Assembly (NCBI RefSeq): GCF_026248685.1
Contig: NZ_CP111041.1
Location: forward strand, 248,001-312,000
From: Haladaptatus caseinilyticus
Lineage (GTDB): Archaea > Halobacteriota > Halobacteria > Halobacteriales > Haladaptataceae
Length of the DNA stretch: 64,000 nucleotides
Direction of reading: 5' to 3'
Shown: positions 8,166-60,364 of the stretch, one piece after another
Layout of the letters: each line of letters starts with the position of its first letter
Numbering within the stretch: position 1 is the stretch's first letter
Translations under genes and position numbers: made by a program
The notes under the pieces: generated by a model
Databases searched by the model: none
What the model saw: the letters and a program-made list of their open reading frames with translations, nothing else
What the model was told of the DNA's origin: nothing

Positions 8166-8386
8166 CACGGCTGATTTTTGAACAGGAATAGCGCAGAACC
8201 TTCTCATTAACCAAGCCACCACCCAAGATTCACACCGTACTGCTGGTGTCGTTTGATGAGCACGGCGTATTGAACGTCCGCACAGTACTTTATGTTCTGA
8301 ATCCTGAATGTGGTAGGGGAAATCATGCTACACCTCTGTATTTAGCCCCTCTGTCTATACCCATCTAAACGAACCCAAGCAGACGA

Positions 8387-9163
8387 ATGGAAGCTCAACA
8401 TCGCACAATCCGACGAAAAAGGCATAACTCGATGTTCTCCGCAGTAGGAACGAGTCAACGGCGGTCAATCCTTGCAACCCTGAATGATGAGGACGCGGCG
8501 ATGTCCGAGCAAGAACTCGCACTCAGGCTTGCAGAAGGTGATCAAAAAGTTCCAGAAACAGATGTTACCCCCGAAATACAAACCATCCATACGAATCTCA
8601 ACCACGCCCAACTACCACTGTTAGAAGACAACGGCTTCATCGAATGGAACCAAGAGGAAGGAACCGTAACCACGACGGATCATCGTGCGTTCGAAGACCC
8701 ACAGTTCGAGCGATTCCTCGAAATAGAGCACGACGAGGTAGACGATGCGTTGGCTGGGCTGGCAAACAAACATCGACGGCTTCTCCTCGCGATCCTTCGA
8801 GACACCCAGGAATCGATGTCGAAGACAGCACTGGCTCAAAAAATCCATCAACGAGACAACGAAGGGTCAAAATCTACTCAAACAGCGACCAAGGAGCTCG
8901 TTGTGATGTTGTCTCACGTTCACCTCCCCCTGCTGAGTGATGCCGAAATTGTCGAATACAACGAAGCCACGGGGCACGCAGTATACACCGAACATTCAGG
9001 GCTTGAAGAGCTAATCACACATTTTCACCGACCGTATACCCGAATCGTCACGAAGTTAGATCAGTTCTTAGGAGGATTGCTAACGACATATACAAAGGCG
9101 AGCAATCAGACAGCTGATCCCTTTGACTGGCCAACGTCTTGGAGAGATTCCACCCATGGCTAA
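8387..9163 (+). CDS. Double winged-helix DNA-binding protein (DUF7344-like repeats)
   Basis: The 258-residue protein is built of two similar halves. The first has SAVGTSQRRSILATL near residue 22 and HAQLPLLEDNGFIEWN; the second has LANKHRRLLLAIL near 123 and HVHLPLLSDAEIVEYN. Each half fits a haloarchaeal winged-helix unit of DUF7344 style, in which the His-leading helix precedes the wing. It probably binds DNA as an intramolecular pair. Its end overlaps the start of the small membrane protein by eight bases, so the two are translated together. No membrane segment is present in this protein itself. A comparable HTH plus membrane pair occurs at 58209-58890. Confidence 0.85.
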   Translation: MEAQHRTIRRKRHNSMFSAVGTSQRRSILATLNDEDAAMSEQELALRLAEGDQKVPETDVTPEIQTIHTNLNHAQLPLLEDNGFIEWNQEEGTVTTTDHRAFEDPQFERFLEIEHDEVDDALAGLANKHRRLLLAILRDTQESMSKTALAQKIHQRDNEGSKSTQTATKELVVMLSHVHLPLLSDAEIVEYNEATGHAVYTEHSGLEELITHFHRPYTRIVTKLDQFLGGLLTTYTKASNQTADPFDWPTSWRDSTHG

Positions 9164-9542
9164 ATCACCCGAGTTGTGGGCATTCATTCTGTCCAATGCA
9201 CTGTTATTCATCAGTGGAAGTATCTTGCTGGCGCTGAGTTTTCTCGCCTATTACCAAAACCCACGATCCAAATCCTATCGATATGCCACAACCGGCTTCG
9301 GAATTGTCGTTCTGGGTGGGATCGTGAGTCCAGTGTATCGGCTTCTCATACGGAATGACTATCAACTGAATGCCTCCCAACGGTTGCTCCTCCAATCCGG
9401 AAAAAACGTCTTGTTAGCAGTCGGACTAGGATTGGTCTTCTATGCGATCACCCGTCACGATCCCGGGTCGCCAACGATGGGCAATCAGGAATCGATCGAG
9501 ATGGGTCTCGATGAGTTTGATGAACAGCGACATAATGAGTAA
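9156..9542 (+). CDS. Small three-helix membrane protein (DUF7521-like), partner of HTH protein
   Basis: Starting at the ATG that overlaps the upstream HTH gene, the product has 128 residues with three hydrophobic segments (about residues 10-30, 45-65 and 85-105) separated by polar loops: YYQNPRSKSYRYA after helix 1 and RNDYQLNASQRLLLQ before helix 3. The C-terminal 25 residues are acidic. Size and layout match the protein at 58209-58520, which is also joined to an HTH gene. The pairing suggests that the membrane protein sends a signal to, or tethers, the DNA-binding partner; that is inference. Confidence 0.8.
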   Translation: MAKSPELWAFILSNALLFISGSILLALSFLAYYQNPRSKSYRYATTGFGIVVLGGIVSPVYRLLIRNDYQLNASQRLLLQSGKNVLLAVGLGLVFYAITRHDPGSPTMGNQESIEMGLDEFDEQRHNE

Positions 9543-58208: not shown

Positions 58209-58520
58209 CTACCCACGCGAATGCAACGAGTAGGCGATCAGTAAAACGCCGAGGAACTGAAACAGCCGCGTGATGAGTGTGAGCAATTGTTGATACTGCA
58301 GAGCGAGGTAGCCCTCCCGAAGTAGCAATGAGCCGACAAAGGCGATACTGAACGCAACAGCCGTGAGAAAAAACAGGCCGATGGAGAGCGCTTGCATCGT
58401 TCGGCTATCGTGGCGACGATACCCACGGTAGGCTTGATATCCTACATATCCGCCGACGAGTGTCGATCCGATGGCGAGCGCGATGATAATCCAGTCAACA
58501 ACGGCGGCCATAGGTGCCAT
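58209..58520 (-). CDS. Small three-helix membrane protein (DUF7521-like), second copy
   Basis: Starting at the ATG one base after the HTH stop gives 103 residues (an ATG three codons later is also possible). Hydrophobic segments lie near residues 6-25, 45-65 and 80-100, with YRGYRRHDSRTMQ after helix 1 and LREGYLALQYQQLLTLITRL before helix 3. The plan matches the protein at 9156-9542. Both are directly behind an HTH gene, so a sensor-regulator pair is likely. Confidence 0.82.
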   Translation of the reverse strand: MAPMAAVVDWIIIALAIGSTLVGGYVGYQAYRGYRRHDSRTMQALSIGLFFLTAVAFSIAFVGSLLLREGYLALQYQQLLTLITRLFQFLGVLLIAYSLHSRG

Positions 58521-58521
58521 T

Positions 58522-58890
58522 TCAGAGATCCTCCCACATTTTCTTGAAGCGGTCGGCGGTGTCGCTCTCCCGTTCACCGGGGAACGATTCGTCTGTACGC
58601 GTCACAACTGCCTCGAAAGATCCGGTGTCCAACTCGAGACAGACCTCCGATAACGTAGCCGTATAAACGCTATAGTGGTTGTTGTCGGTTCGAATCTTGG
58701 TCTGTTCTTCGAGGAGCCCAAATGCTTGTAATCGGTCCACTCGGCGGTAGACCGTCGGTGGAGACATCTCACATTCGTCGGCGAGCTGTTGTGCGGACAT
58801 TGGTTTGATACTTGTTGCTGCGAGGATATCTCGGGCGTACTCGTCACTGAGGACGTCAAGAAGCTTACCCAGCGCAGGATCCTCACTCAC
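58522..58890 (-). CDS. ArsR-type winged-helix regulator paired with membrane protein
   Basis: The 122-residue protein starts at a GTG. Its N-terminal 75 residues are a winged helix: LDVLSDEYARDILAATSIKP, ADECEMSPPTVYRRVDRLQA, then LLEEQTKIRTDNNHYSVYTA. The last 40 residues are polar. No Cys pair of a metal-sensing ArsR is present. Its stop is one base before the membrane protein start. Confidence 0.9.
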   Translation of the reverse strand: MSEDPALGKLLDVLSDEYARDILAATSIKPMSAQQLADECEMSPPTVYRRVDRLQAFGLLEEQTKIRTDNNHYSVYTATLSEVCLELDTGSFEAVVTRTDESFPGERESDTADRFKKMWEDL

Positions 58891-59179
58891 GTTTCGGTCG
58901 AAAGATTGCCTGTCGGTGTAAAAGACCCATGGATTTTAAACGTGAAAGGTCGCGGCGATCGATTTCGCGAGTATGGCAGGGTGGTATCGTGCTACTGTGG
59001 GAGGGCACGTGCGTCAGCGGTAACCGCGATGGGAGGTCTCGTGCTGTCAGAGGCCACATTACCATACTACCAGTGTGGGAGCACGTTGTTTGATCGTTGG
59101 ATCCCATCGCATTTCGATGGACGAACCGGTGGATAATATAAAAGTAGGGCGAGTTTCTGACCCAGAAATTCGCGTGGTA

Positions 59180-60364
59180 TCAGGCTGGACAGCCGACCGA
59201 CTGGCCAACTTCGATCATACGATCCGTTTTGACACCTGTTCCCCGGACGGTGTAGCCGTAGCCATTGCAGTTCCACGAGAGTGAGGTGGTCGGCCCGTAG
59301 TCGAAGGTTGCCGGTTGGCCGTTGAGCGTCACGTCTTGCTCGTCGGGATCGATGTTGAGGGTGTAGTTAAACTTCGCGACCGTGAGCTCGCGACCGTTAG
59401 CGGCGTAACGGAGTCCGACCCCGCTGATACGGCCGGTCGTTCGTGTCGCGTACACCAGTTCAAACGCGGATGGAACAGTCGGATCGGGCACCGAGATCGA
59501 ACTCTGTGCCTTCAGGTTGGCTCGGCGTCGATACCACTCCGTTTCTGGCGTGTCCGGCCGCTTGACTGACGTATCTGTGCCTATCTCGGGGCGAAACGCG
59601 TCCGCCGAGACTTGTGGGTTGATGGTTACGTTCGTGTAGGTCGTTGTTACTGATTGCTGGGTACCGTCGGTGTTCCATGCCGTCTGCTTACGCAGTGGAT
59701 AGAATCGTTCGGTGTCAACCCACAGCCGTTGTCGGTAGTGAGCGTCGCTCTGATTGGTTTTGGGAGTGATATCGAGTACGTACGCGTCGTGCTTGCCAAC
59801 AGTATCGGTTTCCACGAACTCAACGGTGAAACTACGGTTCGCGTCCATTTGAGGGGCAGTGCCAGAGTGTCGAGGTAAGACAGGTAACGGCGACACGCCG
59901 ATAGATTGTGGCCGACCCATGTCGTCAGTCAACCCTGCGGCCGCGACGAGCTGTTGGATTCTGACAGCCATTTGGGAATCAGCCGGTGGACCCGTCAACT
60001 CGATTTCGGTCACAGCGTTTTGGTCAGTATCGTGGAGCCAGAGCGTCGACCCGTTCGAAACTTGCAGGTCGTACTGTCGATTCGACGTGTTCCGAAAGCG
60101 GATCCGTTTCCGGTCAGTACCGGGGACGAGCATGACAGTAGCGACGTTTCGAGATGCGATGGAACCATTAGTTCGCATCGTTACTGTCTGCGTTCCGGTG
60201 AGCGCGTTGATGGATCGGTAGCGCTCAGTCACATTGGCGTCAATCGAGGGGGTCGGGTCCTCCGTCGTACCCCCCGTTGCCCAGAAGATTGCTGGAAGCG
60301 TGACGCCAAGGAGCAACAGTACGACGAGTATGTGTCGGTTGAATCGGAATATTGGATGTGTCAT
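59180..60364 (-). CDS. LolA-like exported or membrane-anchored protein
   Basis: The 394-residue protein has a hydrophobic N-terminal segment (HILVVLLLLGVTLPAIFWAT) acting as signal or anchor, then a large beta domain of the LolA/outer-membrane-lipoprotein-sorting type: ERYRSINALTGTQTVTMRTN, MLVPGTDRKRIRFRNTSNRQ and DTERFYPLRKQTAW. There is a second beta repeat toward the C-terminus. Haloarchaea have many such paralogues; they may bind lipids or lipoproteins on the surface. Function is unknown. Confidence 0.8.
   Translation of the reverse strand: MTHPIFRFNRHILVVLLLLGVTLPAIFWATGGTTEDPTPSIDANVTERYRSINALTGTQTVTMRTNGSIASRNVATVMLVPGTDRKRIRFRNTSNRQYDLQVSNGSTLWLHDTDQNAVTEIELTGPPADSQMAVRIQQLVAAAGLTDDMGRPQSIGVSPLPVLPRHSGTAPQMDANRSFTVEFVETDTVGKHDAYVLDITPKTNQSDAHYRQRLWVDTERFYPLRKQTAWNTDGTQQSVTTTYTNVTINPQVSADAFRPEIGTDTSVKRPDTPETEWYRRRANLKAQSSISVPDPTVPSAFELVYATRTTGRISGVGLRYAANGRELTVAKFNYTLNIDPDEQDVTLNGQPATFDYGPTTSLSWNCNGYGYTVRGTGVKTDRMIEVGQSVGCPA

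Follow-up and report, generated by a model that had tools for sequence, protein, structure and literature searches.

Two gene pairs in the analysed window, a 64,000-nt stretch of the Haladaptatus caseinilyticus genome, each consist of a winged-helix (HTH) gene, encoding the DNA-binding head, followed directly by a gene for a three-helix membrane protein of the DUF7521 family, and represent a gene pair that is near-universal in haloarchaea. The same membrane protein stands behind three unrelated kinds of regulator, making it probable that DUF7521 is an interchangeable membrane partner that reports cell-surface events to the regulator. With slightly better than even confidence, we interpret the pair as a one-component regulator that is split over two genes, linked to the membrane and similar in its mode of action to SdpI/SdpR. 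Haloarchaea possess many regulators of unknown input; a near-universal pair that combines a defined membrane partner with an operator, the latter predicted for a subset, would make a whole class of archaeal surface sensing directly testable. Exchange of the head while the membrane partner stays constant would also point to a natural, portable device that couples signals at the membrane to a DNA-binding protein of choice.

Pair 1 lies on the forward strand and is composed of an HTH gene (8387..9163, 258 aa) encoding two DUF7344 winged helices with a C-terminal helix and tail, and a membrane gene (9156..9542, 128 aa) encoding a divergent DUF7521 protein with three hydrophobic helices. The two open reading frames share 8 nt at 9156..9163 (ATGGCTAA), covering the head stop and the membrane-gene start. 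Head 1 matches DUF7344 (PF24035) over two stretches with 95.1 bits (E 3.4e-27; cut-off 27.8 bits), and its AlphaFold2 model (mean pLDDT 74) displays two winged helices, after which come helices of low confidence; a Foldseek search of this model against solved structures returned no significant match. Membrane protein 1, modelled as three long helices at low confidence (mean pLDDT 58), scores 22.6 bits against DUF7521 (PF24365; E 1.3e-4), below the gathering cut-off of 27 bits, and is placed within the family by the tree and by an iterated HMM.

Pair 2, on the reverse strand, comprises an HTH gene (58522..58890, 122 aa) with a single HTH_20 (ArsR-like) winged helix (PF12840, E 1.1e-10) and, after a one-base gap, a three-helix DUF7521 gene (58209..58520, 103 aa) that matches PF24365 with 43.1 bits (E 5.5e-11), above the same 27-bit cut-off. 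Both pairs described in the earlier note are thus real as open reading frames, with the overlap and the gap it gave, and their heads do belong to different Pfam families. A LolA/RseB-like exported protein with an N-terminal membrane anchor is encoded at 59180..60364 on the same strand (PF17131, E 1e-7, over the cut-off; MucB_RseB match weak). This gene precedes the pair 2 orthologues as well, in an order kept in six species of four genera. In Haloferax mediterranei ATCC 33500, E6P09_RS16765/RS16770 is the orthologue of pair 2. The ~290 nt between it and the pair 2 HTH gene (58890-59180) carry a conserved ATGCGATGG and a TATA-like box of their own, and perhaps represent a leader or a small transcript.

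BLASTP of membrane protein 1 against membrane protein 2 reveals no similarity. Together with the position of membrane protein 1 under the Pfam cut-off, this would suit the view that the window pairs are unrelated look-alikes, small membrane proteins lying beside HTH genes by chance. That view is rejected as exceedingly improbable, since profile search, multiple alignment and tree all group both proteins in DUF7521. The relatedness proposed earlier from likeness seen by eye is accordingly family-level, as the pairwise comparison is empty; a Gln-rich stretch before helix 3, offered as a shared trait, is not found family-wide.

DUF7521 was found in 144 of 145 haloarchaeal genomes, covering all 58 genera sampled, and relatives of either window membrane protein were absent from the viral contigs searched. 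PF24365 and PF24035 are Pfam families of unknown function, and a full-text literature search retrieved no paper naming DUF7521 or DUF7344. The H. caseinilyticus genome encodes six DUF7521 genes: four behind HTH_20 genes, one DUF7344-headed (pair 1) and one without an HTH neighbour. The earlier description of two copies therefore holds for the window, where the pairs are real, and is too narrow in scope for the genome and for haloarchaea.

Pairing was counted for 88 DUF7521 genes in ten genomes, covered as fully as the listings allowed, with an HTH gene taken as directly upstream when it lies on the same strand and ends ≤150 nt before the DUF7521 gene. The earlier note had named homologues mostly without HTH neighbours as the outcome that would speak against it; the count came out in its favour. 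Of the 88 genes, 66 (75%) possess such a winged-helix gene directly upstream, with a median gap of 1 nt, and 50 of these 66 overlap it or start within 10 nt of its end. A further ten come second in a tandem that follows an HTH gene, and 12 have no recognised HTH gene in front. With only 71 HTH_20 matches in the whole H. caseinilyticus genome, this rate is far above chance, for which we estimate about one HTH_20 neighbour among 88 genes.

DUF7521 genes without an HTH neighbour are exemplified by L008, L108 and L261 (similarly L083, on the + strand, and L159), with L008 and L108 both located behind FAD or Fe-S oxidoreductase genes. At two loci (L138, G106:C3; L146, G142:C3), a single open frame encodes a pair of DUF7521 domains with about seven hydrophobic segments, and elsewhere separate DUF7521 genes lie in tandem behind a single HTH gene.

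Among 160 non-redundant pairs, 150 carry HTH_20 heads and ten carry double DUF7344 heads, the latter all (10/10) overlapping their membrane gene by an equal length of 8 nt. Six Haladaptatus loci from named genomes are all DUF7344-headed, some being the same genes seen again. The DUF7344-headed membrane proteins and one HTH_20-headed relative (L039) form one clade (support 100/96), the tree nests the DUF7344-headed clade among HTH_20-headed proteins, and a single origin of the DUF7344-headed proteins is not rejected (AU p 0.58). This nesting means that pair 1 is best read as a product of head replacement. HTH_20 is the rule, and double DUF7344 a rare replacement whose distribution is compatible with a single event.

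Beyond haloarchaea, DUF7521 relatives occur in six of 69 sampled genomes of the wider phylum, and a seventh genome was found afterwards; at six of these seven loci, a regulator gene immediately precedes DUF7521. The front regulators tested by Pfam belong to Lrp/AsnC, with an AsnC-type HTH and a ligand-binding domain. By domain match and gene position, Lrp/AsnC is a third head type, seen in genomes outside haloarchaea and occupying the same place before DUF7521. The idea of one membrane partner with differing DNA-binding heads, drawn earlier from two pairs, therefore extends to HTH_20, double DUF7344 and Lrp/AsnC. CsmR of Haloferax volcanii was considered as a described member and set aside; it is Lrp/AsnC-like, and the accessible part of its published description names no membrane partner. 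At five loci (L010, L014, L068, L069 and L092) a gene for a regulator like the bacterio-opsin-activator type precedes the pair; at L092 it lies directly before DUF7521 (118 nt) and is possibly a fourth head.

Double DUF7344 proteins without DUF7521 mostly carry another C-terminal domain instead. In L189 (3007-4167), L097, L099-L101 and L190, the double DUF7344 is fused to a C-terminal domain of ~170 residues; the one copy of such a domain that was tested resembles the TrmB effector domain (PF11495), scoring just below the cut-off. The H. caseinilyticus genome holds 66 DUF7344 matches, and its best-scoring single DUF7344 proteins mostly bear membrane helices in cis, one or two at the C terminus; these best-scoring proteins are a large set of uncharacterised, predicted membrane-tethered DNA-binding proteins. 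Because DUF7344 elsewhere carries membrane helices or a TrmB-C-like domain in cis, DUF7521 stands at the sensor or anchor position. As predicted from domain layout, the DUF7344 DNA-binding family has its sensor or membrane part in cis elsewhere and receives it in trans, as DUF7521, here.

Three hydrophobic segments are present in 149 of the 160 membrane proteins. Loop 1, which connects helices 1 and 2, has on average 3.56 Lys and Arg residues per protein; the N terminus has 0.12 and loop 2 has 0.71. By the positive-inside rule, this places loop 1 and the C terminus in the cytoplasm. The predicted topology thus has the N terminus outside, with a conserved Arg-rich loop 1 (AYRRtgS..LR.L) and the C terminus inside. 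None of the 160 heads contains a transmembrane segment, and no natural HTH-DUF7521 fusion occurs among the 160 pairs.

A candidate docking element is the C-terminal helix and tail, conserved in alignments of DUF7521-paired DUF7344 heads and located at 9035..9160 (+) in head 1 (..RIVTKLDQFLGGLLTTY...DPFDWPTSWRDSTHG). HTH_20 and DUF7344 heads have similar C-terminal helices (DLVDKFxxFWxDL and LVDKLDGFLGGL, respectively). In a profile comparison across heads, the match beats column-permuted profiles (0 of 299) but nearly equals its reversed control (17.3 against 15.9), and direct single-sequence HMM scoring of window head 1 gave no signal for this helix. Homology of the helix across heads was therefore set aside and the element kept as a candidate only; the likeness may be generic amphipathicity.

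Co-inheritance was examined for 64 HTH_20 pairs from ten genomes with a Mantel comparison of head and membrane-protein distances, using random re-pairing within each genome as the null. The observed r of 0.727 lies far above this null (mean 0.016, maximum 0.139), so the pairs diversified as units. Such co-diversification, which physical linkage of neighbouring genes can also yield, is evidence for a unit and falls short of proving contact.

Palindromes are present at several pair promoters. Pair 2 and its orthologues are preceded by the palindrome TTTCTGnnnCAGAAA, with a second copy at -57 from the HTH start in four species. In the window, the perfect palindrome TTTCTGGGTCAGAAA (59154..59168, - strand), followed by a TATA-like TTTTATATTAT, sits between the LolA-like gene, ~12 nt behind it, and the pair 2 HTH gene; it is conserved in six species, and the genome has no other perfect copy. 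A subset of HTH_20 pairs carries TTTCnGnnnCnGAAA at about -56, just upstream of the TATA element, visible in pair promoters as an A+T-rich signal at -33 to -26. The core TTCnGnnnCnGAA, a pattern spotted before it was counted, occurs at one mismatch in 36 promoters; the stretch immediately upstream yields 8, the mirror pattern 6, and the next stretch, which holds the first copy of the pair 2 relatives, 16. Its positions cluster at -55 to -58. At pair 1, a putative operator-like imperfect palindrome, CCTCTGTATTTAGC (8333..8346, + strand), recognised in an alignment of seven promoters, lies upstream of a TATA-like CTATAC (8355-8360), and two Haladaptatus relatives have perfect palindromes at this position. 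Palindromes showed no general enrichment upstream of all heads, and a genome-wide count of TTTCTGnnnCAGAAA as a regulon marker equalled its mirror control, with no excess. For a subset of HTH_20 pairs, these sites are suggestive of autoregulation from a promoter-adjacent position.

In the mechanism we propose, the winged-helix protein encoded by the upstream gene would be soluble and, at least for a subset of pairs, would probably bind the palindrome beside its own promoter; the downstream gene would encode the three-helix DUF7521. DUF7521 would bind its cognate HTH protein at the cytoplasmic face, probably with loop 1 contacting the C-terminal helix of the HTH protein, and would hold or release this protein depending on a membrane or surface signal, with different DNA-binding heads fitted to the same membrane partner. 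In some subfamilies, an exported neighbour (a LolA/RseB-like protein or a Tat lipoprotein) may provide this signal. Physical contact, sequestration, signal direction and autoregulation are all steps that we infer. In its broadest form, to which we give not quite an even chance, DUF7521 would serve throughout haloarchaea as a module for docking and sensing to which ArsR-like, double DUF7344 and Lrp/AsnC factors have each been fitted. The resulting kinase-free, trans-acting surface-to-gene signalling class would number about five copies in each genome, and LolA/RseB-like proteins or Tat lipoproteins would feed some of them.

SdpI of Bacillus subtilis sequesters SdpR, an ArsR-type autorepressor, at the membrane (PMC1626106), the mechanism that by analogy would apply to DUF7521. 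Both systems are two-gene operons in which an ArsR-like winged-helix regulator is followed by a polytopic membrane protein with no kinase. They differ in that head 2 scores 25.4 bits against a 100-bit cut-off for the SdpR model, that no SdpI family appears among the Pfam/NCBIfam matches of either membrane protein, that DUF7521 has three helices, and that its heads are swapped among three families; with neither profile reached, membership of the SdpR/SdpI system was rejected. Transmembrane transcription regulators (TTRs), including archaeal ArnR/ArnR1, combine DNA-binding and membrane parts in one polypeptide (PMC10269533, PMC6396743) and resemble the DUF7521 pair as one-component systems with a membrane-linked DNA-binding domain and no partner kinase in the unit. 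The DUF7521 system consists of two genes rather than one chain, and the lack of membrane segments in its heads excludes it from the TTRs in the published sense. In the Sigma-E/RseA/RseB envelope-stress pathway, an extracytoplasmic sensor feeds a membrane-bound inhibitor. Pair 2, behind its LolA/RseB-like exported protein, recalls this arrangement in the neighbour's position and fold class only; it has no sigma factor and no RseA homologue, and its RseB match is weak.

The main competing explanation makes DUF7521 itself the effector, acting in stress, immunity or membrane homeostasis. The HTH protein would be its local regulator, with no contact between the two, and head replacement a plain exchange of local regulators. 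Solitary DUF7521 genes (12/88), some behind FAD/Fe-S genes, and the palindrome that a subset of pairs has at its own promoter would fit this account, and tandem and fused copies behind one HTH gene look like dosage of an effector. We nevertheless judge it rather unlikely: the co-diversification of cognate paralogues exceeds what local autoregulation needs, though linkage alone could cause it; the conserved DUF7521 feature is a cytoplasmic Arg-rich loop; and DUF7521-paired DUF7344 heads carry a C-terminal extension that is missing from DUF7344 doubles with a sensor in cis.

Alternatively, DUF7521 could be a constitutive tether that keeps the HTH protein at the membrane, where this protein itself would receive the signal, as TTRs do. 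Membrane-tethered winged helices are indeed common in the H. caseinilyticus genome (single DUF7344 with C-terminal membrane helices), and TTRs occur widely among prokaryotes (PMC10269533) and include archaeal ArnR (PMC6396743). Separate genes, never fused in 160 pairs, suggest reversible binding instead, and we regard a permanent tether as improbable beside a partner that holds and releases its regulator.

Other neighbours of DUF7521 genes vary among subfamilies. A lipoprotein gene with a Tat-like signal lies 95-125 nt before an HTH_20-DUF7521 subfamily at six loci (L114, L116, L126, L145, L253 and L254), and most other HTH-DUF7521 pairs have neither a LolA-like nor a lipoprotein neighbour. 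At L004, L017 and L087, high-scoring DUF7521 genes adjoin a copper-type P-ATPase gene.
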